Shown here: positions 35,556 to 62,325 of the stretch, one piece after another | Numbering within the stretch: position 1 is the stretch's first letter | How the letters are laid out: each line of letters starts with the position of its first letter | Assembly: GCA_040755395.1 (NCBI GenBank) | Contig: JBFMAX010000005.1 | Span: forward strand, 1-64,000 | DNA: 64,000 nt | Direction of reading: 5' to 3' | Origin: Nitrospirota bacterium | Lineage (GTDB): Bacteria; Nitrospirota; Nitrospiria; Nitrospirales; Nitrospiraceae | Notes under the pieces: model-generated | Told to the model about the DNA's origin: nothing | Seen by the model: the letters and a program-made list of their open reading frames with translations, nothing else | Database searches by the model: none | Position numbers and translations under genes: made by a program

Positions 35556-36524
35556 TCACGACAGCACTTCGGTGATACGGCAGGCCTGGTTGCCTCTGGA
35601 GACGCCAGGGGCCGCGTGAAATTTCGGGATGTTTTCAACGAAACACACCACCGGATCGCCGGGATGTTGGTCGAGCACGAGCACGTCGCCTGGGGCAAAG
35701 TTCAGGACGTCCCGAAGTTGCACAGTCGCCGTCCCGAGCCTCGCGGTGATGGTCAGCGGGCACTCCTGCAATCTGTCTTTGAATCGGCTGGCCCAACTGC
35801 CGTCCTGATTCACATGATCGGAGATGAGCCCCGAATAGAGCTTCTCCTTAATTGGCTCGAGCATCGAATAGGGATACACGACGAAGAAGTCCCTGGCCGC
35901 TTCGCCGATCAGCACCTGGAGCGTCACTACGACCACGATCTCGGACACCGATACCACCATGGCAAATTGCGGATTGCTCTCCGAACGCACGTGTTGGACC
36001 GTGACGGGCATCAGCGCTTGCCACGCCTTTTCCAGATCGGAGAACGCCTGCAGCACAATCTTCTTGATCACACGCATCTGAATCGGCGTGAAGTCGCGCC
36101 CCTCCGGTTTCACGTATGTCTGTCCCCTGCCGCCGAAGAAGTAATCCACGATCAAATAAACGAGCATCGCGTCCATGACGTAGAGTCCGTTGCCGCGCAG
36201 CGGATCCATGCGAAAAACGCTCAGAGACGACGGGAGCGGTACTTTCTTGAGGAACTCGCCGAACTTCATGATCTGAGTCCCGACGACACTGAACTCCACG
36301 GACACCCGAAGTAGGCTTCCCCAGGAGATTGACTGCCGGCGACTGAACCGGTTGTTGATCATCTCGAGCGTCGGCATCCGCCCTCGGATGATCCGCTCCT
36401 GATTGACCAAGTCGTATGTCTTGACAGCGCCCGCGTCCTCTTCCTTGGGCGTCGTATCCACTTCGCCGGACACGACCCCTCTCAACAGGGCATCGACTTC
36501 CTCCTGCGACAGAATCTTGTCCAT
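35556..36524 (-). CDS. fliM: Flagellar switch protein FliM
   Basis: 322 aa. The N-terminal CheY-P-binding motif is intact (ILSQEEVDALLRG), then the central FliM domain with VYLIVDYFFGGRGQ-like VYLIVDYFFGG, and a C-terminal SpoA domain (ARLGTATVQLRDVLNFAPGD). FliM links chemotaxis signalling to the motor, so the organism should have CheY although no che gene is in the window. 32 bp after fliL. Confidence 0.96.
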   Translation of the reverse strand: MDKILSQEEVDALLRGVVSGEVDTTPKEEDAGAVKTYDLVNQERIIRGRMPTLEMINNRFSRRQSISWGSLLRVSVEFSVVGTQIMKFGEFLKKVPLPSSLSVFRMDPLRGNGLYVMDAMLVYLIVDYFFGGRGQTYVKPEGRDFTPIQMRVIKKIVLQAFSDLEKAWQALMPVTVQHVRSESNPQFAMVVSVSEIVVVVTLQVLIGEAARDFFVVYPYSMLEPIKEKLYSGLISDHVNQDGSWASRFKDRLQECPLTITARLGTATVQLRDVLNFAPGDVLVLDQHPGDPVVCFVENIPKFHAAPGVSRGNQACRITEVLS

Positions 36525-37320: not shown

Positions 37321-38349
37321 TTAGGCGGGCTGCAGCTTCCTCGGATCATAGGGCTGCCCGGACTTCAACACGCCGTAGGCCGTGGTCAGCCGCTGGCGCG
37401 CCAGCGCCACGACCGCACTCGTCTTCCCCCGGCGCCGGGCGATCCGCGCGTAGAACTGCTGGAGCGGCTTCGCCCCCGCACTCTTCATCCGCACCACCGT
37501 CTGGGCCCATGGCAAGAGCACCCGCCGGACCTCGCTCCGGCCATCGCGATTGATCCGGCCGAGCTGCCGGACCGCGCCACTCTGATAAATCGTCGGGGCC
37601 AAGGCGCCGTAGTTGGCCACGGCCTTCTGATCGTCAAACCGACGGGCCTCATCGAGCGCGCTGAGCACCACCCGGGCCCCCAGCGGCCCGATGGCTGGAA
37701 TGCTCTCGAGCAGCGGACAGCGGGGGTCCTGGATCGCCACCACCCGCGCGGTGCGCGGCTGCTCCGCCGCCAGCAACGCCTCGATGCTGGCCATGTCCGT
37801 CTCAATGATCAGCCGCAACGGCGCACTCACCGGCAGCTGCGCCAGCTTCGCGGCCCAGGTTGGTCCCGCACAGAACTTCTCCGGCAACCGATGCCCTTCT
37901 TGGGACACGTCGCCCCGGATCGTATTGATCAGCGCGATGCGCTTGCTCGGCCGTTGCTGCCGCGCACTCACCAACTCCCGCAGCTCTCGGACGCGCCCCT
38001 CCACCACAGGCCCCGCGCGCGGGAGGATCCCCGCCCGCGCCAGTTCCGCGAGCTTCTTCGCATCCACCCGATCCGTCTGGCCCTGACTCTCGGTGATCCA
38101 TTTCACGTCGTTCGGATGCACCACATACACCTGCACCTCGGGCATCCGCTTCAAGGTTTCGGCAATCCACTTCAACTGATTGCCGGCCTCAACGACGACC
38201 AGCTTCGCGCCGACTCCCACCTGTTGCCGCAGCGCCCGGAGTCCCGCTCGCGTCGCGGCCGCCGTGCCGGCATACACACAGCGCTTCCGCTCGTTGACCG
38301 CATAGCCCACCACGCTCTTGCCACTGATATCCAAGCCGACGTCCAACAT
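37321..38349 (-). CDS. IS110-family transposase
   Basis: 342 aa. N-terminal DEDD domain: Asp in DVGLDISGKS, Glu in LVVVEAGNQ and the Asp pair in QTDRVDAKKLAELA. C-terminal Transposase_20 domain from about residue 215 (LLESIPAIGPLGARVVLSAL), with the family YQSG segment around residue 265. The full length and intact motifs suggest activity. The gene has the same direction as the flagellar genes, so read-through from the upstream sigma-54 promoter could co-express it. Confidence 0.93.
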   Translation of the reverse strand: MLDVGLDISGKSVVGYAVNERKRCVYAGTAAATRAGLRALRQQVGVGAKLVVVEAGNQLKWIAETLKRMPEVQVYVVHPNDVKWITESQGQTDRVDAKKLAELARAGILPRAGPVVEGRVRELRELVSARQQRPSKRIALINTIRGDVSQEGHRLPEKFCAGPTWAAKLAQLPVSAPLRLIIETDMASIEALLAAEQPRTARVVAIQDPRCPLLESIPAIGPLGARVVLSALDEARRFDDQKAVANYGALAPTIYQSGAVRQLGRINRDGRSEVRRVLLPWAQTVVRMKSAGAKPLQQFYARIARRRGKTSAVVALARQRLTTAYGVLKSGQPYDPRKLQPA

Positions 38350-43364: not shown

Positions 43365-43787
43365 TCACGCGGGACGCCGTCGGCCAGCGACTTCATCCAT
43401 GAGCCGCTGCTCCTGTTGTTCGACGGCGCGCCGTCGCTGCCGTTCGTGTCGCTCTTCCAATATTTCCAATTTCCGCCGTTCCCGCGCGGCCTCAAGCACC
43501 TCTTGTTGTTTGCGTTCCCATTCGGTGCGCAACGCGGCCGCTCGATTCTTGGCCCGTTGAATCAATCGCGCCAGCCCATCCAGAGCCTCGTGCTGCTGCA
43601 CGGCTTCGCGAGCGGTCACCCCGGACTTCGCGCTCTGCACATAGGCGTGAGCCACGGCGCCGACTTCCGACTCCAGCACGACGCGACGCGCTTCTGCTTG
43701 CTGCAGCTGCTGCTCCAGCGCCTCCAACTCGATCCGCAGCGCGCGTTCTTGTTGCGCACAGTAGTTCTTGAGCCTCGTGATAGTCAT
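43365..43787 (-). CDS. fliJ: Flagellar export protein FliJ
   Basis: 140 aa, almost entirely charged coiled coil (ALRIELEALEQQLQQAEARR through RKLEILEERHERQRRRAVEQ). FliJ is the central stalk of the FliI ATPase and escorts chaperones to FlhA. Overlaps fliI by ATGA, which supports stoichiometric production. Sequence conservation is weak; context and coiled-coil pattern carry the call. Confidence 0.88.
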   Translation of the reverse strand: MTITRLKNYCAQQERALRIELEALEQQLQQAEARRVVLESEVGAVAHAYVQSAKSGVTAREAVQQHEALDGLARLIQRAKNRAAALRTEWERKQQEVLEAARERRKLEILEERHERQRRRAVEQQEQRLMDEVAGRRRPA

Positions 43788-45091
43788 GGCGCCGCCTCGG
43801 CCAGTTTCAGAAGCCCTTGAACCGACGTCGTATAGTCCGCCGGCTCTCCGATCTCCTGCCGGAGAAACGAGGTGATCGCGTCATGAGCCGAGACCGCCCG
43901 GTCCAGCGCTTTGTTTGCGCCCGGCTTGTAGGCGCCCAGCGTGATGAGGTCTTCGGACCGGCGGTAGGTGGCGACGGACTCGACGATGGCCCGGGCGGCC
44001 GCGAACTGTTGAGGCGGCACGATGTCCCGCATGACACGGCTTGTGCTTTGCAAAATATCGATGGCGGGAAAATGGTTTCTCGCCGCGAGTTCGCGCGACA
44101 GAATGATATGCCCGTCGAGAATCGACCGGACCGTGTCCGCGACGGGATCGGATAAGTCGTCGCCGTCCACAAGCACGGTGTACAGGCCCGTGATGCTGCC
44201 CTGCCCTTCGCAGGTGCCGACCCGCTCCAACAACTTGGGGAGCAGCGCGAATACCGACGGCGTGTAGCCCTTCGTCGTCGGCGGCTCGCCGACGGCCAAG
44301 CCCACCTCGCGTTGCCCGTAGGCCAACCGCGTGAGCGAATCCATCACGAGCAGCACCTGCTTCCCGCCATCGCGGAAATACTCGGCGATCGACGTCGCCA
44401 TCAAGGCGCCTCTGATCCGGACCAGGGGCGGCTGATCCGACGTCGCGACGATCACGACGGACCGCTGTCTGGAGGCGGGAGTCAGATCGCGCTCCAGGAA
44501 CTCCTTCACTTCCCGCCCCCGTTCGCCGATCAACGCGATCACGTTCACGTCCGCCACGGTATAGCGGCAGATCATGCCGAGCAGCACGCTCTTGCCGACT
44601 CCCGAACCGGCGAAGATTCCCAGTTTCTGTCCGACTCCGCAAGTCAGTAACGCATTGATGGCGCGCACCCCGAGATCCAGCGGCCTGGTTATCCGTGCGC
44701 GGGTCAACGGATTGGGCGGCTCGGCATGCAGCGGATAGGTGGCGTGGCTCCGGATGGCCGGGCCGCCGTCTAATGGTTCTCCAAGACCGTCGAGAATCCG
44801 GCCCAGCAACTCAGGGCCGACGCCCACCGACGCGGACCGACCTTTCATGATCAGCCGGCTGTCCGGCCCGATTCCGCGCATCTCCCCGAGCGGCATCAAC
44901 AATACGCGGTCCCCTCGAAATCCCACAACCTCGGCCAGCACGGCCCCCTCCCCGTCTTCGCGCGTCACCTCACAGATTTCGCCGATCGAGGTCACTGGAC
45001 CGTAGCCCTCGATGACGACACCTACGGCCTGAGCGACGCGGCCATGCACCACGAGCGGATCGACGCCTTCGAGGAGATCGGTGAATTTCAT
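43784..45091 (-). CDS. fliI: Flagellar type III export ATPase FliI
   Basis: 435 aa from the ATG at 45091, 2 bp after fliH. F1-beta-like ATPase with Walker A AGSGVGKSVLL (162-168), Walker B VLLVMDSLTRLAYGQREV and the arginine-finger region. Hydrolyses ATP to release substrates from chaperones. Partners with FliH (upstream) and FliJ (downstream). The open frame further upstream overlaps fliH and is not used. Confidence 0.97.
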   Translation of the reverse strand: MKFTDLLEGVDPLVVHGRVAQAVGVVIEGYGPVTSIGEICEVTREDGEGAVLAEVVGFRGDRVLLMPLGEMRGIGPDSRLIMKGRSASVGVGPELLGRILDGLGEPLDGGPAIRSHATYPLHAEPPNPLTRARITRPLDLGVRAINALLTCGVGQKLGIFAGSGVGKSVLLGMICRYTVADVNVIALIGERGREVKEFLERDLTPASRQRSVVIVATSDQPPLVRIRGALMATSIAEYFRDGGKQVLLVMDSLTRLAYGQREVGLAVGEPPTTKGYTPSVFALLPKLLERVGTCEGQGSITGLYTVLVDGDDLSDPVADTVRSILDGHIILSRELAARNHFPAIDILQSTSRVMRDIVPPQQFAAARAIVESVATYRRSEDLITLGAYKPGANKALDRAVSAHDAITSFLRQEIGEPADYTTSVQGLLKLAEAAP

Positions 45092-45093
45092 GG

Positions 45094-46131
45094 TCAATGT
45101 CTGTCCCTGAGGGCTTCGCCCAGCCGAGCCAATTGCGTCTCCAGCGCGGCATCGACCAGCCTGGTCGGCGTCTGGACCAGACACCCGCCGGGCGCGACGC
45201 GCGGATCGGCCTCGACGACCAAGGTCACCGGTCCGTCGAACACGCCAGCCAGGGCTTCACGCGCGCTTTCCAGCAGCGGCGCGTCGCTGGGATGCACGCG
45301 CAATCGGACGGAGCCGCTGTCTTTGACGCGCGCCAACGCCGCCCGCACCTGTTCCACAACCAAGTCGCGTCTCTCCTCGACGACCTGGCGAACGATCTTC
45401 GCGGCGATCGCGAAGGCCAATGCGCACACCTCCTCTTCGACGGTCGCCCGAACGTTCGCAATCGTTTCTTCCAGGCGCTGAACCGCGTTCGCCAGCAGTG
45501 CGTGCTCGCGCCGGCGAAGGGCGGCTTCCCGCTCCTGGGCCCGCCGCTCGCCTTCAGCTAGGCCGCGCTCGAATTCCGTCAAGCCGTCTGAAACGCCCCC
45601 TCGATCTCCGCGGCTGAAATCCGCCAATGCCACACTCCGGATCCGGACCGCACCCGCCTTCACGATGCCGTGCTTGAGCACAGAATTCTCCTGCCGAAGC
45701 CGATGCAGCTCCACCAACCGTCCGACGGCCGCGAGCACGAGTTGAGCTTGAAAGGGCTTGGTGAGAATGTCCGAGGCGCCGGCCTTCATCGCCTCGACGG
45801 CGAGGTCGATCCGGCCGTGGCCGGTCGCCACGACCCCGAGGATCCGAGCATCGATCTCGAACGCCCGCTGAATGAGCGCGATCCCATCCATGTCGGGCAA
45901 TTGGACATCGGTAATGAGCACCTGAACGGATTGCGCTTGCAGGCACGCGATGGCTTCGGCCCCGGTCTCCGCACACACGGCGCGATACCCTTCCCCGTTG
46001 AGCAGCTCATCGAGGACATGGCGGGCGCCTGCGTCGCCGTCCACAACCAAAATGGACTCGCAGCTTGCGTGCCGTTTGCCTTCCGCCGGCTTCGCTGGCG
46101 CGGCAGTCGATGTCTCGCAACGGACGGACAC
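45094..46131 (-). CDS. fliH: FliH export-ATPase regulator fused to an N-terminal receiver domain
   Basis: 345 aa, GTG start at 46131 directly abutting the fliG stop. Residues ~25-140 form a complete receiver domain: ILVVDGDAGA (Asp31, but the second acidic position is Gly32, Asp33 next), phospho-acceptor Asp75 in VLITDVQLPDMDG, Thr103 and Lys125 in LTKPF. The linker RLVELHRLRQENSVLKHGI matches the signalling helix of NtrC-family regulators, including the one at 55320-56732. Residues ~183-345 are FliH: coiled coil (FERGLAEGERRAQEREAALR) and the FliI-binding C-terminus (CALAFAIAAKIVRQVVEERR ... VEADPRVAPGGCLVQT). Ordinary FliH has no receiver. Gene order fliG-fliH-fliI confirms identity. Confidence 0.93.
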   Translation of the reverse strand: MSVRCETSTAAPAKPAEGKRHASCESILVVDGDAGARHVLDELLNGEGYRAVCAETGAEAIACLQAQSVQVLITDVQLPDMDGIALIQRAFEIDARILGVVATGHGRIDLAVEAMKAGASDILTKPFQAQLVLAAVGRLVELHRLRQENSVLKHGIVKAGAVRIRSVALADFSRGDRGGVSDGLTEFERGLAEGERRAQEREAALRRREHALLANAVQRLEETIANVRATVEEEVCALAFAIAAKIVRQVVEERRDLVVEQVRAALARVKDSGSVRLRVHPSDAPLLESAREALAGVFDGPVTLVVEADPRVAPGGCLVQTPTRLVDAALETQLARLGEALRDRH

Positions 46132-47124
46132 TCAGATCAGTTCCTCTCCAAAGCCGGCGACGACGATGCGTCCCTCCTCTTCCAGTTTGCGACAGATCTT
46201 CAGGATGTTCTGCTGGGCCTTTTCCACGTCGCTCAGTTTCACCGGTCCGCGAGCTTCCATATCTTCCTTCAGCATCTCGGCCGCACGACTCGACATGTTT
46301 CGGAAGAACCTCTCCTTGACGTCCGGACTGGCTCCGCGCAGCGCCACCGGCAATTCGTCCTTGCCGATTTCCTTCAGTAGTTCCTGAATGCTGCGATCGT
46401 CCAGTTTGATCAGATCGTCGAACACAAACATCAACGCACGGATGCCATCCGCCAACATCTGGTCTCGTTCGGTGATTTTCGCCATGATCGCGCTTTCGGT
46501 CGATTTGTCCAACCGGGTTAGGATGTCGGCGATGACCTCGGCGCCGCCGACGCTCATGGTGCCTGGACCCGCGTTCGCCGCCAGCGATTCCTGCAACGCG
46601 TCGCTCAGCTCCTGTAAGACCTCCGGCCGCACCTCCTCCATGGTGGCCAGGCGCAGCGCCACGTCCACCCGCATGGCCTCCGGCAAGCCGGCCAGCACCT
46701 GGCTTGCCTGCTCAGGATCCATATACGCAAGGATGACGGCGACGGTCTGCGGATGCTCGACCCTCGCCAGTTGGACGATCGTTTTGGAGTCGACCCATTT
46801 GAGCATATCCAGTCCGGGATAACTCGCGGATGTCAGCGACTCCAGCACTCTGGCGGCCTTTTCAGGGCCCAGGGCTTTGGTCAGCACCGTTTTGACGTAT
46901 TCCCTGCCCGCAAAGCCGATCTCCCCAGAGGTACTCGCTTTCTCGAATTCCGCGATTACTTCCTCTTCTTCGTCCCGCGCGATGTTGGCCATCTCCTTCA
47001 TGGAGGCTCCGATCCTGCGGATCTCTTTCGGCTCCAGGCACTTCATGACCCGCGCGGCCGCGTCCTCGCCGATAGCTCGCAACAGAATGACGGCTTTCTC
47101 TTCGCCGGTCAGCTTCCTCGCCAT
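46132..47124 (-). CDS. fliG: Flagellar motor switch protein FliG
   Basis: 330 aa with all three FliG domains. The middle EHPQTVAVILAYMDPEQASQ and the C-terminal charged torque helix (SSRAAEMLKEDMEARGPVKL, DVEKAQ follows) are present. FliG couples stator force to the rotor and binds FliF and FliM. The stop abuts the fliH GTG. Confidence 0.97.
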   Translation of the reverse strand: MARKLTGEEKAVILLRAIGEDAAARVMKCLEPKEIRRIGASMKEMANIARDEEEEVIAEFEKASTSGEIGFAGREYVKTVLTKALGPEKAARVLESLTSASYPGLDMLKWVDSKTIVQLARVEHPQTVAVILAYMDPEQASQVLAGLPEAMRVDVALRLATMEEVRPEVLQELSDALQESLAANAGPGTMSVGGAEVIADILTRLDKSTESAIMAKITERDQMLADGIRALMFVFDDLIKLDDRSIQELLKEIGKDELPVALRGASPDVKERFFRNMSSRAAEMLKEDMEARGPVKLSDVEKAQQNILKICRKLEEEGRIVVAGFGEELI

Positions 47125-50272: not shown

Positions 50273-51691
50273 TCAGGTTCGCTCACTCACAACCTGCCCG
50301 CCGCACTGACGGTATTCCCGAAGTTTGTTCCTGAGCGTGCGGATGCTGATTCCCAACTCTTTCGCCGCGTGAGTTCGGTTGTCCTTGACGCGGGCCAGGG
50401 TCTTGAAGATCAGCTCCCGTTCCATCTCCCAGAGGCTGCCCCGGCACTGCGTCGAGCCCTCGGGAACGCCGGACGGTTCACCGACCTGAATGGTTAGAGG
50501 GGTCGAGTCCTCGGACACATGCTCGAGACCGATCGTCCCGTTCCGAGCCAGCAGAACCGCACGTTCCATCACGTTCTCCAATTCCCGCACGTTCCCCTTC
50601 CAGGGGCGCCCCTGCAGGACCGACAGAGCCGCATCGGAGATGATCGGGGCGTGAAGCCCGTTGCGGGCCGCTGCCGCCTTGGCGAAATGTCTCGCCAACA
50701 TGGGAATATCAGCCGGCCGCTCGCGCAGCGGGGGGAGTGTAACGGGAAACACGTTCAAGCGATAGTAGAGATCCTCACGGAACCGCCCTTGCTCGACTTC
50801 CCGATACAGCGAGCGGTTGGTAGTCGCGATCACGCGGATGTTGACCCGGACCGGCTCGCGTCCACCTACTCGATCGACTTCGCGCTCCTGGAGAACCCGC
50901 AGCAGCTTGGCTTGAAGGCCAAGCGCCATCTCGCTGATCTCATCCAAGAGCAAGGTGCCGGTGTGAGCCATTTCGAACTTGCCCATCTTGCGGACGAGCG
51001 CGCCGGTGAAAGCTCCGCGCTCATGGCCGAACAGCTCGCTTTCCAGCAAGCCGTCCGGGAGGGCTGCGCAATTCACGGCGATAAACGGTCGGTGCGCACG
51101 CGGGCTCCGGCTGTGGATGAACCGCGCCAGCAATTCCTTGCCCGTTCCGCTCTCGCCCGAGATCAGCACCGTCGCTTGGCTGGCCGCTACAGCTTCCACC
51201 GTGCTCAACAGGCGGATCATGCCGGGGTCCCGGGTGAGGATCGGCTGTCCCGGCGACGGGATTGGCGCCTCCGCGCCTTGTTCCTGTGCAACCTCCAGGT
51301 TGGCAATGACCCGCTCCAGCAGATCCGTCGAAAACGGTTTCAGAATGTAGTCGCTCGCACCGCATTTCATGGCTTCCACCGCCGTTTCGACGGTCGCATA
51401 GGCGGTCATCAACACGACTTTGGTCTGGGGGGAACGCTTCTTGATTTCCTGAACGAGTTCGATGCCGCCGAGTCTGGGCATTTTGAGATCAGTCAAGACG
51501 AGCCATGGCTTACTCGCGAGCACTCGGTCGAGCGCCTCCTGGCCATCGGTCGCCGCCACCACATCATACCCGAACCGCCGCACCGTTTCCGAAAGAGCGG
51601 TCCGCATGGACGGCTCATCGTCGACGATCGCGACGGTTCTGGTTTCGGCCGGCTGGCCGCTCGACGAACGTTCGAAGGCCGTTCCGTTCAT
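50273..51691 (-). CDS. FleR/FlrC-like sigma-54 activator (NtrC-family response regulator)
   Basis: 472 aa: receiver (acidic pair VDDE, Asp68 in VLTDLKMP, Lys in LKPF), AAA+ domain with Walker A GESGTGKE (179-186) and the sigma-54-contacting GAFTGA loop (226-231), and a Fis-type HTH (NRTHAAKELGISIRTLRNKL). Such regulators open sigma-54 promoters when phosphorylated. The gene immediately precedes the flgB promoter and follows its probable kinase by 26 bp, the FleS-FleR / FlrB-FlrC arrangement for class III flagellar genes. Confidence 0.9.
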   Translation of the reverse strand: MNGTAFERSSSGQPAETRTVAIVDDEPSMRTALSETVRRFGYDVVAATDGQEALDRVLASKPWLVLTDLKMPRLGGIELVQEIKKRSPQTKVVLMTAYATVETAVEAMKCGASDYILKPFSTDLLERVIANLEVAQEQGAEAPIPSPGQPILTRDPGMIRLLSTVEAVAASQATVLISGESGTGKELLARFIHSRSPRAHRPFIAVNCAALPDGLLESELFGHERGAFTGALVRKMGKFEMAHTGTLLLDEISEMALGLQAKLLRVLQEREVDRVGGREPVRVNIRVIATTNRSLYREVEQGRFREDLYYRLNVFPVTLPPLRERPADIPMLARHFAKAAAARNGLHAPIISDAALSVLQGRPWKGNVRELENVMERAVLLARNGTIGLEHVSEDSTPLTIQVGEPSGVPEGSTQCRGSLWEMERELIFKTLARVKDNRTHAAKELGISIRTLRNKLREYRQCGGQVVSERT

Positions 51692-51717: not shown

Positions 51718-52980
51718 CTATCCAGATGCTCTGGGTGCATCACCCCTTCCCTTACACACACTCCGGCCCGGCGAGGAGTCGTCCGCAGACGGTCCCATAG
51801 GCAAGACGATTGTAAAGGTGGTCCCGCACCCGACTGTGCTCTCCACGTCGATCCGCCCCCGATGCGCCTCCACGATGGCATGAACGATCGCCAATCCGAG
51901 TCCGGTTCCCTCATCCTTCGTCGTAAAGAACGGATCGAAGATACGCGACCGATGTTCGGGCGGAATGCCGTCTCCGGTATCTGACACGGTCACCCGGACA
52001 CCTGGGATGCCCAAGATCCGTTCTTCATCGAGACCCACCCTGATCCTAAGGGTTCCTCCATATCGCATGACCTGAACGGCATTAAGGATTAGGTTCACCA
52101 GGACCTGCTTCATCTGAAGCGCATCGCACCAGAGCCGCGGGGTCCGGGGATCCACTGAGACTTGTGTCACGACTCCGGCTCGGGCCGTTCCGTGAGCAGC
52201 GAGCGTTAAGGCCTCGCGCACGAGGGATTCGCTCCCCTGCCAGCTCGCCCGTGGACAGTTCGGTTTGGTGTACAGCAAGAGATTCGACAGCAGCCGATTC
52301 ATCGCATGGACGGCTGAGGAAATGTGCTCGGCATAGACTTGAAGGTCCGGCGTGGCTTTGAGCTCTCTGCGCAACATCGAGGCGAACAGCTCGACGCTGC
52401 CCAAGGGGTTCCTGAGCTCATGCGCGATGCGCCCCACCATCTCCCCCATCGCGGCCAGCCGGTCTCGACGCTGCAGGCGTTCCTCTAACCGTCTGACCGC
52501 GGTGATGTCCTGCAACAGCAGGAGGCTGCCGGTCGACACACCTTCCTGGTTCATCATGGGGGTCCGCGTGATCGTGAGAAGCGCGCCGCTGCGGGCGGTG
52601 ACAGGATACTCATTACCATCCAGACCGGCTTGGCGCAGGAATGTAGCCAGCGGCTGCCCGAGCATGTCGGCCTGCGCCATTCCGCTGAGGCGCTCGGCGG
52701 CGCGGTTGCATCGCGTGATCACCCCTTGTTGATCCGTCACGATGACGCCGGTCGCCAAAGACTCCAGAATGGCCGACAGATGGTTTCGCATTTCTTCGTT
52801 TTCGCGCAAATTGCGACGCAGCGCCTCGTTGCTTTCGGCCAGTTCCAGATCGAGCCGTTCCAGTCGGAGCAACAGGGCACGATAGGATTCCTGAAGAGTC
52901 GCGGCCGCTACGTCGAAGCTGCGAAAGGCGTCCTGCAATAACTCTCGTTCCCCGGCTGCAGGCAATGAACCGGCCGGCAT
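51718..52980 (-). CDS. FleS/FlrB-like soluble sensor histidine kinase
   Basis: 420 aa from the ATG at 52980, chosen for AAGGAAGGTG 7 nt upstream; longer frames run through the TPR gene. N-terminal coiled coil, PAS (~70-175, SAILESLATGVIVTDQQGVI), HisKA with GRIAHELRNPLGSVELFASM, and HATPase (ILNAVQ, VSDTGDGIP, GTGLGLAIVHAI). No transmembrane segment, so it senses a cytoplasmic signal, perhaps basal-body assembly state. Predicted partner of the regulator at 50273-51691. Confidence 0.88.
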   Translation of the reverse strand: MPAGSLPAAGERELLQDAFRSFDVAAATLQESYRALLLRLERLDLELAESNEALRRNLRENEEMRNHLSAILESLATGVIVTDQQGVITRCNRAAERLSGMAQADMLGQPLATFLRQAGLDGNEYPVTARSGALLTITRTPMMNQEGVSTGSLLLLQDITAVRRLEERLQRRDRLAAMGEMVGRIAHELRNPLGSVELFASMLRRELKATPDLQVYAEHISSAVHAMNRLLSNLLLYTKPNCPRASWQGSESLVREALTLAAHGTARAGVVTQVSVDPRTPRLWCDALQMKQVLVNLILNAVQVMRYGGTLRIRVGLDEERILGIPGVRVTVSDTGDGIPPEHRSRIFDPFFTTKDEGTGLGLAIVHAIVEAHRGRIDVESTVGCGTTFTIVLPMGPSADDSSPGRSVCKGRGDAPRASG

Positions 52981-52984
52981 CGCT

Positions 52985-55156
52985 TCACCTTCCTTTCTTC
53001 TGAACTCGAGGACGGATCTGTTGCAGCAGGGTCGTCGACACTCGCCGCATGAGCGGATCGTCCACGGCGCCGACCTGCTTGAACAGCGATTCAGCTTCGC
53101 GATAGTTCTTTTGCATGAGCTGGATTCGCCCCAGTTGCAGCCGTGCCCACTGCGCCTGATCAGGCCGCGGCCTTGCCGCCAAGACCTGCCGGTACAGCCC
53201 GACGGCACGGTCGTATTGTTGCACCTTCGCGAGCAAGTCCCCGAATTCGAGTAATGCGGCCGCGTCTCGGAAAGATCCCGTCCGCCAGGCTTCTTCGTAT
53301 ACAAGGAGCGCCTCATCGGATTTCCCCGCCTCCGCCAACGTCCTGGCGAGGAGAATCAGCATGTCCGGCCGATCAGGATGGCGCTCGTACAGACGCAGCC
53401 ATCGGCGACACACCCGGATGGCCCCACTCCGATCGCCCTGTTGTCGCATCGCTTTCACCAGGAGCCCCAGCGCCTCGGGTGTGGATCGTCCCACCGGGAA
53501 TTGGAGCCGGTATCGCTCGAACACTTTTCGAGCCGCGGCGGGATCATGCTGCGCGAGATACGTCCGGCCCAGTCCGATCAGCGCCTGTTCAAGAAACGGC
53601 CTCCCTTTCGGCTCACGAAGGATGGTTTGGTACAGACGGGTGGCCTGGGCTGTGAATCCGAGGCGTCGGTGGGCATCCGCCACGTTCAGGAGCAACTCCT
53701 GTCCCAGATAGACCCGATCGGCAAGCGCCCCATGTCGATGGAACAACGTCACGGCCGTGAGGTCATCTCCTGCTTTGAAGGCTGCTTCCATCCAAGGGCG
53801 AAGAATGGTTGCGATCCGCGATGCGGCGGTCTCCGGCCAGGGATCGCCTTCGATGCGTCCCGACCGCTTTGTGACATCCTGATACGCCTGAATCGCCTGC
53901 ATCCGGTCTCCGGCGGATTCGTAATGCTCGCCCAAGCGAAACAGCGCTTCGCTTGCCAGGACGTTGTCCGCATACCGGGCCGCAATCGTACGAAGGGTCT
54001 CCCGCTGCTCCGCGGGATCGAGGTACGGCGCCGGCTCCCCACGCATCGCGCTCTCGACGGTCAGTCGCAGCAGGTTGCCCTCGGCGTCGGCAACCGCTTC
54101 CAATCCGAGCTGGACCAATCGCAGCTTTGCAAGCGGTTCGGTCGGCGTGCCGGGATACAAGGTCAGGGCTGATGTGTAAAAGATTTCCGCCTGGTGCCGG
54201 AGCCCGGACTTCTGGAACGTATCCCCTATCGAAACGAGCGCGGACGGAGCATCAGCATGGCGCGGATAGAGGTTGTAGAACGTGCTATAGATGTGCCTAG
54301 CCAGATGGAGCCTGCCGGTTTCGAACAACGTGGAAGCAAAGCGCAGCAAGGAACCGGGATCCCGTTTGACGAACGCTGGCCAGCGGCGATAGCAGAAGTC
54401 GAACAGCGGCTGCGCCTCCTGGATGCGCCCCTGCTGGTAGAGCGCGGTCGCCGTCCCCAGGGTCGCGCGCATGACGATGCCCTCGTCTGCCGTCCGCCGG
54501 CGCAGAGTGTCGAGCGCCTGCTCGGCTTCGCGCCATTTTTCGAGCGCCATGAACGTGACGCCCTGTCCGAGCAGAGCGCGATCGGCGTCATAGCCGGACT
54601 GTGCGTGAGCCGCCGCGCGCTCGTACGTGGCGAGGGCTTCGTGGTGCCATCCGAGTTCGTTGTACAGATCGCCGACTCGCCACTCCGCGCGCACCGCATT
54701 CGGCGTCCCGGGATAATCGCGAATCAGCACGCGATACACGTTGATGGCTTCAGATCGACTGGCGTCCGTCCGGCCAGCCAGCGCGGTCGCGTCGGCGAGG
54801 AAGGCCAACGCAGCCTGGGCCACCGGACTGTTCGGCTGTTGCTTGACGGCATTCTGAAAATATCGCACGGCAGCGGCGTAGTCACGTTCCTGAAACGCTT
54901 GGACCCCGTATTGGAACGCGGCGCTCGCCTCTTGTGCCAAAGCATGATTGTAGCGAGGTCCGTCGTCCGGCAGAGGAAAGAGCGCCTCGTAAAGACGCGA
55001 TGACGTGGTCGAGACAGTTTGCTGCATTGACGTGGCCGAGCGGCCCGGCTCTCCGGCGTGAGCTCCTAGACCGAGGCTCCCGAACAGCAGCACGCCAACG
55101 GCCACGCAGCGCGCGATAGTGATGGCTCGATTTAGCACGTGCGAAACAGTGAGCAA
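52985..55156 (-). CDS. Secreted TPR-repeat protein of unknown function
   Basis: About 723 aa. A TTG start at 55156 has an AAGGG 8 nt upstream; a GTG at 55138 is an alternative. N-terminal signal peptide (VAVGVLLFGSLGLGAHA, cleavage likely before GEP), then around 15 helical TPR-like repeats to the C-terminus (e.g. FQYGVQAFQERDYAAAVRYF, ALGLLVKAMRQQGDRSGAIR). Probably periplasmic or outer-membrane associated scaffold. It ends 4 bp before the sensor kinase start, so the two are co-transcribed. I do not recognise a specific family; a flagellar or envelope-scaffold role is inferred from location. Confidence 0.75.
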   Translation of the reverse strand: MLTVSHVLNRAITIARCVAVGVLLFGSLGLGAHAGEPGRSATSMQQTVSTTSSRLYEALFPLPDDGPRYNHALAQEASAAFQYGVQAFQERDYAAAVRYFQNAVKQQPNSPVAQAALAFLADATALAGRTDASRSEAINVYRVLIRDYPGTPNAVRAEWRVGDLYNELGWHHEALATYERAAAHAQSGYDADRALLGQGVTFMALEKWREAEQALDTLRRRTADEGIVMRATLGTATALYQQGRIQEAQPLFDFCYRRWPAFVKRDPGSLLRFASTLFETGRLHLARHIYSTFYNLYPRHADAPSALVSIGDTFQKSGLRHQAEIFYTSALTLYPGTPTEPLAKLRLVQLGLEAVADAEGNLLRLTVESAMRGEPAPYLDPAEQRETLRTIAARYADNVLASEALFRLGEHYESAGDRMQAIQAYQDVTKRSGRIEGDPWPETAASRIATILRPWMEAAFKAGDDLTAVTLFHRHGALADRVYLGQELLLNVADAHRRLGFTAQATRLYQTILREPKGRPFLEQALIGLGRTYLAQHDPAAARKVFERYRLQFPVGRSTPEALGLLVKAMRQQGDRSGAIRVCRRWLRLYERHPDRPDMLILLARTLAEAGKSDEALLVYEEAWRTGSFRDAAALLEFGDLLAKVQQYDRAVGLYRQVLAARPRPDQAQWARLQLGRIQLMQKNYREAESLFKQVGAVDDPLMRRVSTTLLQQIRPRVQKKGR

Positions 55157-55319: not shown

Positions 55320-56732
55320 TCAGTTCTGAAACGAATAGGCCTGAGTCTTGGGATCGAATCCTTTCCGCTTCAGCTTTTCCACCAGCGTCGTCCGATTGAG
55401 GTGCAACAGTTGAGCAGCCTTACTGGTGATCCCGTTAGCCTGGCGCAAGGCTTCGACGATCAGCCGATTCTCGTATTGCTCGAGTTCCTTGGCCAGGTTG
55501 ATGCCCCGTTCGCCAAAGTGAATGAACCTCTCACTCTGCGCGGATCGACTGGGCGCTTGTCGCGCGATTTTTTCCGGCAGGTCGGCGAAGCCGATCGTCC
55601 CCGACTTCTTCAGTACCACGAGTCGCTCGATCAGGTTTTCCAGTTCTCTGATATTTCCCGGCCAGTCGTAGGCCGCCAACTGCGCTAGCGCTTCCGGCTC
55701 AATCCCTTGAATCGAGGTCTGCTTGACCTGGTTGAACCGGTGAATGAAATGATTGACGAGCGACGGAATGTCGCTTCGCCGCTCGCGCAGCGGAGGAATG
55801 TGGACAGGAATCACGTTCAGACGGTAGTACAAATCATGCCGGAACTTCTTCTCCTGGACCGCCTGCTCCAGATCCTGATTGGTTGCGGCGATGACACGGA
55901 CGTCCACCGTAATGGTCTTGGTTCCGCCGACACGTTCAAAACACCGCTCCTGCAACACGCGCAGCAGCTTCGCCTGCAGGGAAACAGGCATCTCCGCGAT
56001 TTCATCAAGAAAGATGGTCCCGCCGTGTGCCAATTCGAACCGCCCCATTCTGGTGTAAGCTGCCCCGGTGAACGCCCCCTTTTCATGGCCGAACAACTCT
56101 GATTCCAACAGATTCTCGGGTATCGCCCCACAGTTCACGGGCACGAGCGGACGCCCCCGGCGGTAACTGTTAAAGTGCAACATCCTGGCGACCAATTCCT
56201 TCCCCGTCCCGCTTTCTCCCATAATGAGCACGGTGCTATCGCTGTCGGCCACCCTCTCCACAAAATCCAACACGCCGCGCATCGCCTCGCTGGCGCCGAT
56301 CAAGTTTTCGAAACGGTATTGATCGCGGACTGCCTTGCGCAGCAGGCGATTCTCTTGACGGAGGCGCTGAAATTCGATCGCCTTCCCGACCACCGCCGCA
56401 ACCGCGTCGCACTCGAACGGTTTCGTGATGAAATCGAACGCGCCGGCTTTCATTGCCCGCACGGCGTAATCGATGGTGCCGTAACCGGTCATCATGATCG
56501 CGACGATCTTTGCGTCGATTCGTGAGAGCCGCTCCAAAACCTCCAGCCCGTCCATACCCGGCATCTGCAGATCGGTGACTACGACCTGTACAGGTGTATC
56601 CTTGACGACTTGAATCGCCGTCTGGCCGTCGGCAACGGTCGTGACCTGGTATCCTTCGGCCACGAGTGTTTCGCTCAAGACATCTACGACCGCCGGGTCG
56701 TCATCGACAACGAGAACATGGGGTTGACTCAT
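55320..56732 (-). CDS. NtrC-family sigma-54 activator, FlrA/FleQ- or FlbD-like candidate
   Basis: 470 aa: receiver (VDDD, Asp54 in VVVTDLQMP, Lys in ITKPF), signalling helix RLRQENRLLRKAV, AAA+ domain with GESGTGKE (172-179) and GAFTGA (219-224), and a C-terminal HTH (GITSKAAQLLHLNRTTLVEK) that is the FleQ-type sequence. SD GGAGGA 5 nt before the ATG. No cognate kinase is adjacent, so it may be an orphan master regulator. It stands first in the regulatory set (RR, TPR protein, kinase, RR), all on minus. The FleQ-like HTH suggests control of early flagellar genes. Confidence 0.88.
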   Translation of the reverse strand: MSQPHVLVVDDDPAVVDVLSETLVAEGYQVTTVADGQTAIQVVKDTPVQVVVTDLQMPGMDGLEVLERLSRIDAKIVAIMMTGYGTIDYAVRAMKAGAFDFITKPFECDAVAAVVGKAIEFQRLRQENRLLRKAVRDQYRFENLIGASEAMRGVLDFVERVADSDSTVLIMGESGTGKELVARMLHFNSYRRGRPLVPVNCGAIPENLLESELFGHEKGAFTGAAYTRMGRFELAHGGTIFLDEIAEMPVSLQAKLLRVLQERCFERVGGTKTITVDVRVIAATNQDLEQAVQEKKFRHDLYYRLNVIPVHIPPLRERRSDIPSLVNHFIHRFNQVKQTSIQGIEPEALAQLAAYDWPGNIRELENLIERLVVLKKSGTIGFADLPEKIARQAPSRSAQSERFIHFGERGINLAKELEQYENRLIVEALRQANGITSKAAQLLHLNRTTLVEKLKRKGFDPKTQAYSFQN

Positions 56733-58571: not shown

Positions 58572-59984
58572 CTACGCCTGGGTGAGATTGCCTTCTTCTT
58601 CGGTATCCTCCAACTCGACTTCGGGCTTGCTCTTGGTGTTGGCGGGATGGAGGCCGTATTTCTTGAGCATCTTGTAAAAATCGGCTCGATATCGGCCGGC
58701 AAACTGGGCGGCGCGGGAAATGTTCCCTCCGGTCAACTGCAGAACCTGCTTCAGGTAGTTGCGCTCGAAATCCTCCTTTGCCTCGGTCAGCGGCTTCAAC
58801 GGCGCGTCGCCCGAGACGCTCACGGACGGAAGCAAATCCGGGGTAATCATGTCTTGTTGGGACATGACCACCGCTTTCTCGATCGCGTTTTCCAACTCGC
58901 GCACATTTCCCGGCCAGGGATACAGCATCAGTTTCTGCATAGCGGCCGGCGTGAATCCACGGATGTCTTTATTCATCCGCTGCGTGCTCTGCTTCAGGAA
59001 GTGCTGCGCTAGGATCGGAATGTCATCGCGCCGCTCGCGCAACGGCGGAATCGTAAGCGGGACGACCTGGATCCGATAATACAAATCGTTCCGGAACGTC
59101 CCCGCCTTCACCGCCTCTCCGAGATCTTTGTTCGTCGCCGCGATGATTCTCACATCGACCTTGGTCGAATAGTCGGCCCCGACCTCCTTCACCTCTCGCT
59201 CCTGCACCGCCCGCAGCAGCTTGACCTGCATGGACAGCGGCATCTCGCCGATCTCGTCGAGAAACAACGTGCCGCCGTTCGCGCTCTGAAACAGCCCGCG
59301 CTTGGGTCCGTGCGCGTTGGTGAAGGCGCCGCGGACGTGCCCGAATAGCTCGCTTTCGAACAGGGTCTCCGGAATGGCCGCGCAATTGAGGGCGACGAAC
59401 GGCCCGCGGGCGCGCCGGCTGTTCGTATGAATCACCCGAGCCAGCACCTCCTTGCCTGTCCCCGTCTCGCCGAAGAGACAGATCGTCGCATCCGAGTCCG
59501 CCACTTGGGCCACCTGCTGGAAGAGCCGCTGCATGGCGGCGCTCCGCGCCACCACGTTCTCGAGGCCGTACAGTTCCTTGACCAGCGACTTGAGCCGCTG
59601 GATCTCTCTACTCATACGTTGCTGCGACAGCGCCTTGTCGATGGTCGCCCGGAGATCCTTGTCGTCGAACGGTTTGGTGAGGTACCCACATGCGCCGCGC
59701 TGCATGGCTTCGACGGCGTTCGGAATGCTACCGTGCGCCGTCAGAATCAGCACCGGCAGGCCCGGGTGAATCCGAAGCAGTTCTTCCGCCACATCGAGAC
59801 CATCCTCGCCTCTCAACCGCAGGTCGGTGATGGCCAAATCGTAGACATCTTTCCGCGCGGCGGCGACGGCTTCCTGACCGGTGGTGCAGGGCGTCACGTG
59901 GAACCCCATTGCGGAGAGCCGCATCTTCAGGAGATGCAACAATCCTTCGTCGTCGTCGATGACAAGAATACGTTCGTGTTCCAT
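58572..59984 (-). CDS. glrR: GlrR-like sigma-54 response regulator
   Basis: 470 aa: receiver (IDDDE, Asp54 in LAITDLRLRGEDG), AAA+ with GETGTGKE, and a Fis-type HTH (GNISRAAQFAGRYRADFYKM). The sigma-54 contact loop reads GAFTNA (219-224) rather than GAFTGA, and the segment ANGGTLFLDEIGEMPLSMQV follows. It is last in the order kinase - lipoprotein - regulator, identical to glrK-qseG-glrR (qseE-qseG-qseF). In enterobacteria GlrR activates rpoE and small-RNA genes for envelope stress. The C-terminal Glu-rich tail is short. Confidence 0.85.
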   Translation of the reverse strand: MEHERILVIDDDEGLLHLLKMRLSAMGFHVTPCTTGQEAVAAARKDVYDLAITDLRLRGEDGLDVAEELLRIHPGLPVLILTAHGSIPNAVEAMQRGACGYLTKPFDDKDLRATIDKALSQQRMSREIQRLKSLVKELYGLENVVARSAAMQRLFQQVAQVADSDATICLFGETGTGKEVLARVIHTNSRRARGPFVALNCAAIPETLFESELFGHVRGAFTNAHGPKRGLFQSANGGTLFLDEIGEMPLSMQVKLLRAVQEREVKEVGADYSTKVDVRIIAATNKDLGEAVKAGTFRNDLYYRIQVVPLTIPPLRERRDDIPILAQHFLKQSTQRMNKDIRGFTPAAMQKLMLYPWPGNVRELENAIEKAVVMSQQDMITPDLLPSVSVSGDAPLKPLTEAKEDFERNYLKQVLQLTGGNISRAAQFAGRYRADFYKMLKKYGLHPANTKSKPEVELEDTEEEGNLTQA

Positions 59985-59992
59985 ACGCTCCC

Positions 59993-60778
59993 CTACGGAC
60001 GTGTGTCGGTCCCCGGCGCCGGCAACACGCTCGTCGGGGGCCTGATGGGTCTGGTTTTTTCTCTCATTTCCTGGTCGATACGTTTGAGCGCCTCGAGTTG
60101 ATTGGTGAGTTCTTCGATCTTCTTGTCCCGTTCGTTGATCTGGCGCTGAAGCGTTTGAAGCGTCAGCGTATCTGCGCCGCCGAGCTTCGGGATGTCGCGC
60201 TTATTGATCATCGCCTCCATTCTACGGTCGCGTTCGCTCAGTTCCCGTTGGAGCGATTCGACGGACGAGGTGTCCGCTTCCTTCATGACCAGAAGCTGTT
60301 GGATCGCCACTTCCCGGTCCAACAAGTCCCGCACCAGGCGCTCGGCCGTCTGGGCCAGCGCCGCGTTGTGTTCCACCAGAGACGGCGCGGTCAACACCGA
60401 CTTGACCCAGGACTGGTCGACAGGATTCGGAGTCTCCTGAAGAAGTCGGATCCAGAGCGCGCTTGACGCCGCCTGACGGCTTTTGGGAGCCACCGCGATG
60501 ACCTTGTGGAAGTACTTCGCCGCGGCTTCTCGGCTCTCAAACAGCGCGACCAACGCCCGTGTGAAGTACACGTGATCGCACGCGTTGTGCTCCACGCATT
60601 TGTTCGCCAGCGCCTCCTGCTTTCGCGCGACGGCCTGGAACATCTTCGCATCGCCCTGTTCGGCCGTAAAGAACGGCGTGGAAGGCAAGGGCGTATCGGC
60701 GAGCATTGCGCAGCCCCACAGTCCAATCAGCAGAAGCGCGGCGCCGATCCCGTTCAGAGGCCGAGAGCACCTCCTCAT
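59993..60778 (-). CDS. qseG: QseG-like outer-membrane lipoprotein
   Basis: 261 aa. Lipoprotein signal with lipobox LWGC (Cys23), a helical domain with a conserved Cys pair (KCVEHNACDHVYFTRALVAL), and a C-terminal coiled coil (LQRQINERDKKIEELTNQLE) ending in a Pro-rich tail. QseG connects to the kinase GlrK/QseE in the envelope. ATGA overlap with the kinase gene upstream and 8 bp to glrR. Confidence 0.8.
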   Translation of the reverse strand: MRRCSRPLNGIGAALLLIGLWGCAMLADTPLPSTPFFTAEQGDAKMFQAVARKQEALANKCVEHNACDHVYFTRALVALFESREAAAKYFHKVIAVAPKSRQAASSALWIRLLQETPNPVDQSWVKSVLTAPSLVEHNAALAQTAERLVRDLLDREVAIQQLLVMKEADTSSVESLQRELSERDRRMEAMINKRDIPKLGGADTLTLQTLQRQINERDKKIEELTNQLEALKRIDQEMREKTRPIRPPTSVLPAPGTDTRP

Positions 60779-62325
60779 GTCGCTCCTCCGGGTTTGGTGA
60801 GACGCAGCGTGAATCGCACCGTCGTCCCTTTGCCCACTTCGCTTTCAATCCAAATACGCCCGCCGTGGGCTTCGACCACCTTCTTCGCCAGCGCCAGGCC
60901 CAGTCCGCTGCCGGGAGAAACGTGCTTGCCCTTCGTCCGTCCCTGGTAAAAGCGTTCGAAGATATGCGGAAGATCCTCGGCTGCGATCCCCGGTCCCCCA
61001 TCTGCGACCGTCACCAGCAGTACACCCGTGTTGGGATCGGGCTCCATCAGAAGCTTGACCACGCCGCCTTCCGGGCTGAACTTCAACGCGTTGGAAAGCA
61101 GATTGTCGAGCACCTGCTCGATCCTGGCAAAATCCGCTTTGACCCAGACTCGATCTGATGGGACTTCCATGAGCAACTGGATGTGCTTCGCATCGGCCAA
61201 CAGCCGAACCTTGTTGATGGAAATTTCAGCCACCCGTTTCAAATCGGTCGGGACGATCCGGTATTCCATCATCCCGGCTTCCATCTTGGACAAATCCAAA
61301 ATCGTCGAAATCAGATGAATGAGGCGGCGGCTGCTGTCCGACATGATGCGCAAGGTCGTCCGCTGCTCTTGCGCCAACGGCCCGGGAATTTCGTCCAGGA
61401 GCAATTGCGTGCCCTCTTGAATCGATGCCATGGGTGTTCGCAACTCGTGCGACACGTGGGCCAGGAATTCGGACTTCATGTCGTCCAACTGCTGGAGCTT
61501 CTTCCCCACCCAATTGACCGTATCGACCAGTTCCCGCAGATCGCTCGGCACGACGATTTGCAAAGGCGTGCCGAAATTCCCCTGCCCGATTTCCTTAATG
61601 TGGCTCTGGAGACGCCGGAGCGGGCGCAAGATGCTGTAACTGGCGATGCCCGCCAATCCGAGACCGAACAGCAACGCAACCAGGGCGAGTTGCTCGGTCA
61701 CCGCCTCCGCACGCGCCGAACTGGCACGCGATTGACTGACACCAACGCTGATCCGCGCTTCGTGCAAGCCGATATAGCCTTGCAGGGTCGAGGTCATGCG
61801 ATCGGTCAAGGCATCGCGCCGATTTTCGTACACCGCCAGAACCTCTTTGGAACCGTTCGCGGTCTGTTCCGCCTCCGAAGTGAACAAAGCCAGTCGCTCT
61901 TTTTGAAGACGTTCAGTGTCCTTCAAGAGTTGCTGTCCCTGTGGGGATGTCTCTTGAGTCAACAAGGTTCGGAGCAGCCGCGCGAACTCTTCAGCCTCTT
62001 CGTGAAAGTTGTGAAGAAACGTCGCATCGCGGACGGCGAAATATTTTTTCTCGCTTTGAATCTGGCTGTAGAGAGAGGTAAGCAACCGTTTGGTCGTTTC
62101 AATCGCGGGATAGTGAAGCGATACCATTTCCGTGCTCAAGACGGTCAACTGCCGAAGCTGAAGAAGCGCATAGAGATTCACTCCTACCATGACGGCAATA
62201 ATAACCAGGGAGGTGAGAACCAATCGCCAGAAAATCGAAACACCGGCCACTGACAATCTCTTGCTCTTGGTGGTCAAAATCGTAGTGGAGGAAGCGCTTT
62301 CATCGATGTAGGCAAATCCATACAT
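60775..62325 (-). CDS. glrK: GlrK-like membrane sensor histidine kinase
   Basis: 516 aa. Cytoplasmic N-tail, transmembrane helix 1 (FWRLVLTSLVIIAVMVGVNL), a helical periplasmic sensor (~55-200), helix 2 (LALVALLFGLGLAGIASYSI), HAMP, HisKA with LAHVSHELRTPMASIQEGTQ and HATPase (NLLSNALKFS, ADGGPGI, GSGLGLALAKKVVEAHGG). The GTQLLLDE region after the His box is typical of GlrK. The ATG at 62325 follows AT-rich DNA without a clear SD; the 276-bp upstream gap holds a terminator of the preceding gene. Confidence 0.85.
   Translation of the reverse strand: MYGFAYIDESASSTTILTTKSKRLSVAGVSIFWRLVLTSLVIIAVMVGVNLYALLQLRQLTVLSTEMVSLHYPAIETTKRLLTSLYSQIQSEKKYFAVRDATFLHNFHEEAEEFARLLRTLLTQETSPQGQQLLKDTERLQKERLALFTSEAEQTANGSKEVLAVYENRRDALTDRMTSTLQGYIGLHEARISVGVSQSRASSARAEAVTEQLALVALLFGLGLAGIASYSILRPLRRLQSHIKEIGQGNFGTPLQIVVPSDLRELVDTVNWVGKKLQQLDDMKSEFLAHVSHELRTPMASIQEGTQLLLDEIPGPLAQEQRTTLRIMSDSSRRLIHLISTILDLSKMEAGMMEYRIVPTDLKRVAEISINKVRLLADAKHIQLLMEVPSDRVWVKADFARIEQVLDNLLSNALKFSPEGGVVKLLMEPDPNTGVLLVTVADGGPGIAAEDLPHIFERFYQGRTKGKHVSPGSGLGLALAKKVVEAHGGRIWIESEVGKGTTVRFTLRLTKPGGAT

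Follow-up and report, generated by a model that had tools for sequence, protein, structure and literature searches.

Flagellar export is known to receive signals by way of transcription, cyclic-di-GMP binding to FliI and assembly checkpoints. A 64,000-nucleotide stretch of a Nitrospiraceae genome (hereafter the window; contig JBFMAX010000005.1) raises the question of whether two-component phosphorylation also reaches the export machinery, as its flagellar cluster contains a FliH preceded by a response regulator receiver domain. If such a receiver is active, it would feed phosphorylation signals directly into the export ATPase complex. Each of the two domains is well known; what is new is their combination, its descent and its constraint across a clade. 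A search of the open-access PMC literature yielded no description of a receiver-FliH, and published work on Nitrospira genomes notes FleQ and FleSR homologues, with FliH unmentioned (PMC5767232). The question concerns the motility of globally important nitrifiers; the Nitrospiraceae include major nitrite oxidizers and comammox relatives.

Architecture and genomic setting of the fusion protein

The open reading frame at 45097–46131 (minus strand, as for all features of the window described here; stop codon 45094–45096) encodes one protein of 345 amino acids, here termed REC-FliH, comprising an NtrC-type receiver, a signalling helix, a tether and a complete FliH. Both Pfam domains exceed their curated cut-offs, with Response_reg (PF00072) matching residues 27–136 (79.7 bits, E 2.3e-22) and FliH (PF02108) matching residues 212–336 (76.3 bits versus a cut-off of 24.1, E 2.6e-21). 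An AlphaFold2 model, built from 37 fused sequences (mean pLDDT 83.9, pTM 0.45), agrees with this assignment and gives the receiver a canonical, complete fold, bearing out a preliminary description of the sequence as a FliH fused to an NtrC-type receiver. The receiver, from β1 to β5, spans residues 26–128 (45748–46056), and its closest structures are the NtrC1 receiver (1zy2_A, the best match, TM 0.85 by target) and NtrC1 (4l4u), together with other NtrC-type or CheY-like receivers. In the model, α5 and its extension form a single unbroken helix (residues 129–158; 45658–45747) that includes the LRQEN signalling motif at residues 145–149. There follow a predicted disordered tether (residues 159–185; 45577–45657), with pLDDT below 50 across residues 162–181, a 68-residue helix predicted to form the FliH coiled coil or stalk (residues 186–253; 45373–45576), and the C-terminal domain of FliI-binding type (residues 254–345; 45097–45372). 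REC-FliH resembles Salmonella FliH in its C-terminal domain homology (PF02108; match of the FliH part to the solved structure 5b0o, E 2.8e-4), its long helix, its placement between fliG and fliI and its status as the sole genomic FliH. It differs in carrying a 130-residue receiver plus helix in front, and in that the usual short docking peptide is not N-terminal.

The surrounding genes indicate that this protein serves as a genuine FliH. Directly upstream lies fliG (46132–47124; TIGR00207, E 7.7e-103), with its stop codon abutting the start of REC-FliH, and directly downstream lies fliI (43784–45091; FliI/YscN family), with the ATG 3 bases past the REC-FliH stop taken as its start. Together with fliF, fliE, flgBC, fliJ, flhA, flhB, fliP, fliR, fliM and fliN, fliI makes up a complete set of flagellar genes around REC-FliH, implying that REC-FliH is the working FliH, and a genome-wide search detected no second copy. 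The order RegA-TPR-kinase-RegB-flgB-flgC-fliE-fliF-fliG-fliH-fliI(-fliJ) is identical in genomes with fused and unfused FliH, and the position of fliH between fliG and fliI is the ancestral one. In this order, RegA (55320–56732) is a sigma54 activator of REC-AAA+-HTH architecture, RegB (50273–51691) is a FleR/FlbD-like sigma54 activator, and the kinase (51718–53316 as listed) is a FleS-like PAS histidine kinase with HisKA, HATPase_c and PAS domains. The true start of the kinase is uncertain because the frame as listed overlaps the TPR-repeat gene (52985–55156; 723 amino acids), which separates RegA from the kinase in genomes with either form of FliH. Between fliL and flgE, within the flagellar cluster, lies a transposase-like frame, presumably of IS110 type (37321–38349). 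In genome G004, the start of fliI matches in two pieces (locus L167, 13736–13825 and 13857–15152), as if through a short repeat or an alternative start.

A start-site artefact, with translation beginning behind the receiver, had been named beforehand as an observation that would undermine the fusion. The start codon of REC-FliH is a GTG directly adjoining the fliG stop, and a Shine-Dalgarno-like GGAGAGGA lies within the 3′ end of fliG; in fused relatives the start codons likewise lie at or overlap the end of fliG, and the frame is open across both domains. The window sequence contains a candidate internal start, a GTG at residue 151 with AGGAG upstream. Of the 60 distinct fused sequences, 21 have this GTG, close to the background of Val codon use, and 16 have a start there together with a Shine-Dalgarno-like site; a search for hidden internal starts yielded no conserved one. 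An internal start producing a receiver-less FliH was therefore rejected, and these observations exclude the artefact.

Distribution and descent of the receiver

In the Nitrospirota surveyed, the fusion is restricted to a single GTDB family. A fusion profile was run against 396 Nitrospirota genomes, 110 of them from the family of the window genome, and full-length matches were obtained in 84, all within those 110 family members (hand count). Two further fused genomes (G013 and G026) came from a separate search, bringing the total to at least 86 Nitrospiraceae genomes, and the conservation in relatives expected of a genuine fusion is thus found. Among the matches listed are named records of Candidatus Nitrospira defluvii (FP929003.1), N. 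lenta and other Nitrospira MAGs. The profile search found no fusion in the 286 other Nitrospirota genomes; FliH frames of Nitrospirota beyond the family are mostly 200–290 residues long, leaving no room for a receiver. Within the family, an unfused FliH occupies this locus in some members (G006, G010, G018, G025 and G030) and others possess no FliH, in agreement with the published absence of flagella from N. japonica (PMC5767232). In four other phyla, profile searches at an E cut-off of 1e-45 (three of the four scoring 5–14 candidates per genome) recovered the fusion in none of 769 genomes, drawn from the phyla of Desulfacinum (148), of a Burkholderiaceae genome (398), of an Acidobacteriota genome (199) and of a Nitrospinota genome (24). 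Among the matches listed, those in Desulfacinum, Burkholderiaceae and others looked long but contain no FliH and were rejected as fusions. The FliHs examined in other-phylum genomes (up to 30) have no receiver.

The receiver originates from the same gene cluster. Its resemblance to the activator at 55320–56732, remarked upon in the preliminary description, amounts to 46% identity with the RegA receiver (119 bits; the genome's next-best receiver scores 85 bits). In a tree of 75 receivers, including many other receivers of three genomes, the FliH receivers form one clade (98/85) nested inside the RegA receivers, with the combined FliH and RegA clade supported at 98/94 and the RegB receivers forming a separate clade (100/99). 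CheY was rejected as a source, the nearest relative in the tree being RegA. Profile alignment pairs RegA residues 4–136 with the fusion (E 3.8e-44); homology ends at the signalling helix, approximately eight residues before the RegA AAA+ domain begins at residue 144 (Pfam). The graft thus comprised receiver and linker, with the AAA+ domain left behind. By Pfam, neither an AAA+ sigma54-interaction domain nor an HTH is present in REC-FliH, and the receiver and linker alone are common to it and RegA. On the evidence of the tree and the profile alignment, the donor is identified as the RegA lineage, the cluster's own sigma54 activator, as anticipated in the proposal that the front end of a regulator had been grafted onto FliH. 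REC-FliH thus shares its receiver, extended α5 and signalling linker with NtrC-family activators (Aquifex NtrC1, DctD and RegA); unlike them, it lacks AAA+ and HTH domains and has as its output FliH, the stator or regulator of a different ATPase.

A single gain is the simplest history of the fusion. A tree of flagellar proteins, with two other families from the same order as root, requires one change for the fused genomes, with moderate support (70/81); loss of the fusion in the unfused sister group is a possible alternative history. The locus represents a datable domain graft within one gene cluster, and since donor, acceptor, unfused sister lineages and fusion point can all be identified, the putative step from transcriptional to post-translational control is open to study. 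RegA proteins (65–71% identical) also occur with no fliG or fliH detectable nearby in G008, G016 and G002 (loci L020, L178 and L019), and no FliH was found in the G008 genome; RegA may therefore control something besides flagella. A second sigma54 activator, together with a lipoprotein-sized frame and an adjoining CHASE3/HAMP histidine kinase, is encoded at 58572–62325, and its receiver is unrelated to that of FliH.

Constraint on the predicted phosphorylation site and signalling helix

The residues of receiver phospho-chemistry, located at the positions first described, are almost all retained across the 60 distinct fused sequences. The phospho-acceptor Asp75 (45907–45909) and the conserved receiver lysine, Lys125 (45757–45759), are present in all 60, the switch hydroxyl residue at Thr103 (45823–45825) is Thr or Ser in 59, and the first acidic residue is Asp or Glu in all 60. 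The window protein has an incomplete acidic pair for Mg, with Gly32 (46036–46038) at the expected second acidic position (that of CheY D13); this position is Asp in 49 sequences, Ala in 8, His in 2 and Gly in 1, such that the second acid is lost in 11 of 60. As one of several such losses, Gly32 is unlikely to be a sequencing error. The earlier suggestion that Gly32 may alter phosphorylation holds in part: the residue is real and may weaken phosphorylation in the window protein; however, it is not a family-wide feature, and the retention of Asp there in 49 sequences indicates a local change, with phosphorylation probably normal in most members. Independently of Gly32, one related group (loci L012, L013 and L072–L079; G024, G034 and named Nitrospira MAGs) has lost the second acid to Ala or His.

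Purifying selection is as strong on the receiver as on the FliH part, and no segment of the protein is more tightly constrained than the signalling helix. Pooled dN/dS is 0.078 for the receiver, 0.026 for the helix extension (residues 141–158), 0.081 for the tether, 0.115 for the coil and 0.062 for the FliH C-terminal domain. In the 12 genomes where both proteins were compared, the receiver is about equally conserved in FliH (0.50) and RegA (0.54), whereas the helix extension is better conserved in FliH (0.59 versus 0.41), which argues that the extension matters in its new place. Together, these values indicate that the receiver is maintained and that the signalling helix is specially maintained. 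A short tether motif around Leu169 and Phe172, ending in the latter residue, is also conserved despite predicted disorder (Phe172 in 57 of 60 sequences) and is possibly a docking peptide.

Candidate kinases and the role of the receiver

Specificity towards kinases was compared in 12 genomes at 17 contact-type positions, with the Spo0F reference sequence serving for numbering only. FliH receivers agree with RegA at 24–65% of these positions, mostly 47%, and with RegB at 18–41% (18% in the window genome), agreement being higher with RegA in 12 of 12 genomes. This dissimilarity to RegB, the presumed partner of the FleS-like kinase, does not favour that kinase as phosphodonor to the FliH receiver. 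The α1 helix of RegB is nearly invariant (conservation 0.80), as expected of the partner of a conserved adjacent kinase; in FliH, this kinase-contact helix is weakly conserved (0.38, compared with 0.40 in RegA), so no dedicated kinase is evident.

The reading best compatible with these data, to which we assign a probability of about 0.5, is that REC-FliH is a phospho-controlled FliH that tunes FliH/FliI docking or activity through its RegA-derived receiver. A histidine kinase would phosphorylate the receiver, altering its dimerization or surface at the docking end of FliH; this would tune recruitment of the export ATPase, most likely by changing how FliH docks or how its dimer is arranged at the C-ring or the export gate, and would couple export to the same signal that controls expression of the flagellar genes. 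In Salmonella, FliN and FlhA are bound by the extreme N-terminus of FliH, which thereby docks the FliH2-FliI complex (PMC9114704; PMC7911332), and the receiver of REC-FliH sits at this same end. In NtrC-type proteins, the receiver-plus-linker unit controls assembly of an ATPase ring through dimer geometry. Here, the same unit would be applied to the dimeric regulator of another ring ATPase, FliI. A rigid lever from receiver to FliI-binding domain is unlikely, as the modelled flexible tether of 27 residues between signalling helix and coiled coil argues against rigid mechanical coupling. The losses of the second acid, including that in the window protein, and the weak conservation of α1 relative to RegB count against phospho-control. 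The sequence data suggest that signalling kinases may act directly on the flagellar export machine in Nitrospiraceae. In its wider form, that the type III export ATPase complex of the family is under direct two-component phospho-control via a receiver copied once from the cluster's sigma54 activator, with transcription and export perhaps answering to one signal, the proposal is more tentative.

Related modes of control are known at the flagellar base. Like cyclic-di-GMP control of FliI (PMC4591828), the proposed mechanism would deliver a post-translational signal into the export ATPase complex, with a covalently fused receiver on FliH in place of a small molecule on FliI. Like CheY on FliM/FliN, the receiver would act on flagellar base proteins; however, CheY is a free single-domain protein and steers rotation, not export.

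A first alternative, judged unlikely here, is that the receiver is a phosphorylation-independent docking module that took over the anchoring of FliH at the C-ring, perhaps through CheY-like binding to FliM or FliN, with its phospho-residues kept for the fold or for occasional use. In its favour, the N-terminus of unfused FliHs, in relatives and in other phyla, often opens with a short [RKNS]-[IV]-[ILV]-K motif, which the fused proteins lack at that end. A possible partner is encoded in the window itself, as FliM (35556–36524; FliMN_C) has an N-terminus of CheY-binding type, MDKILSQEEVDALL. The repeated loss of the acidic pair from proteins that are otherwise retained, and the drift of the α1 kinase face, also suit such a module. 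However, the near invariance of Asp75, Lys125 and Thr/Ser103 at approximately 50% overall receiver identity speaks against it, as would a possible remnant of the docking motif after the receiver in two sequences, for which the profile search was not significant (E 1.1).

In a second and less probable alternative, the receiver is a phosphate sink or assembly checkpoint: it would compete with RegA for RegA's kinase, so that flagellar transcription would respond to the quantity or position of FliH-FliI complexes while export is not acted upon. Having descended from the RegA receiver of the same cluster, the FliH receiver would have had RegA's kinase at birth, and its contact positions remain nearer to RegA than to RegB. 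Assembly of the export apparatus is coupled to a flagellar two-component system in the FlgSR pathway of Campylobacter and Helicobacter, a precedent for such feedback. However, positions 18 and 22 (Spo0F numbering) have moved from RegA to Leu/Leu-type in most FliH receivers, which may mean insulation, and a sink would not call for the signalling helix to be under the strongest constraint. The last alternative regards the receiver as a functionless passenger or as an artefact of read-through, a wrong start site or faulty assembly; it could draw on the internal GTG of the window sequence but is refuted by conservation, given the identical fusion in at least 86 independent genomes, the receiver dN/dS of 0.07–0.08 and the lack of conservation of that internal start.
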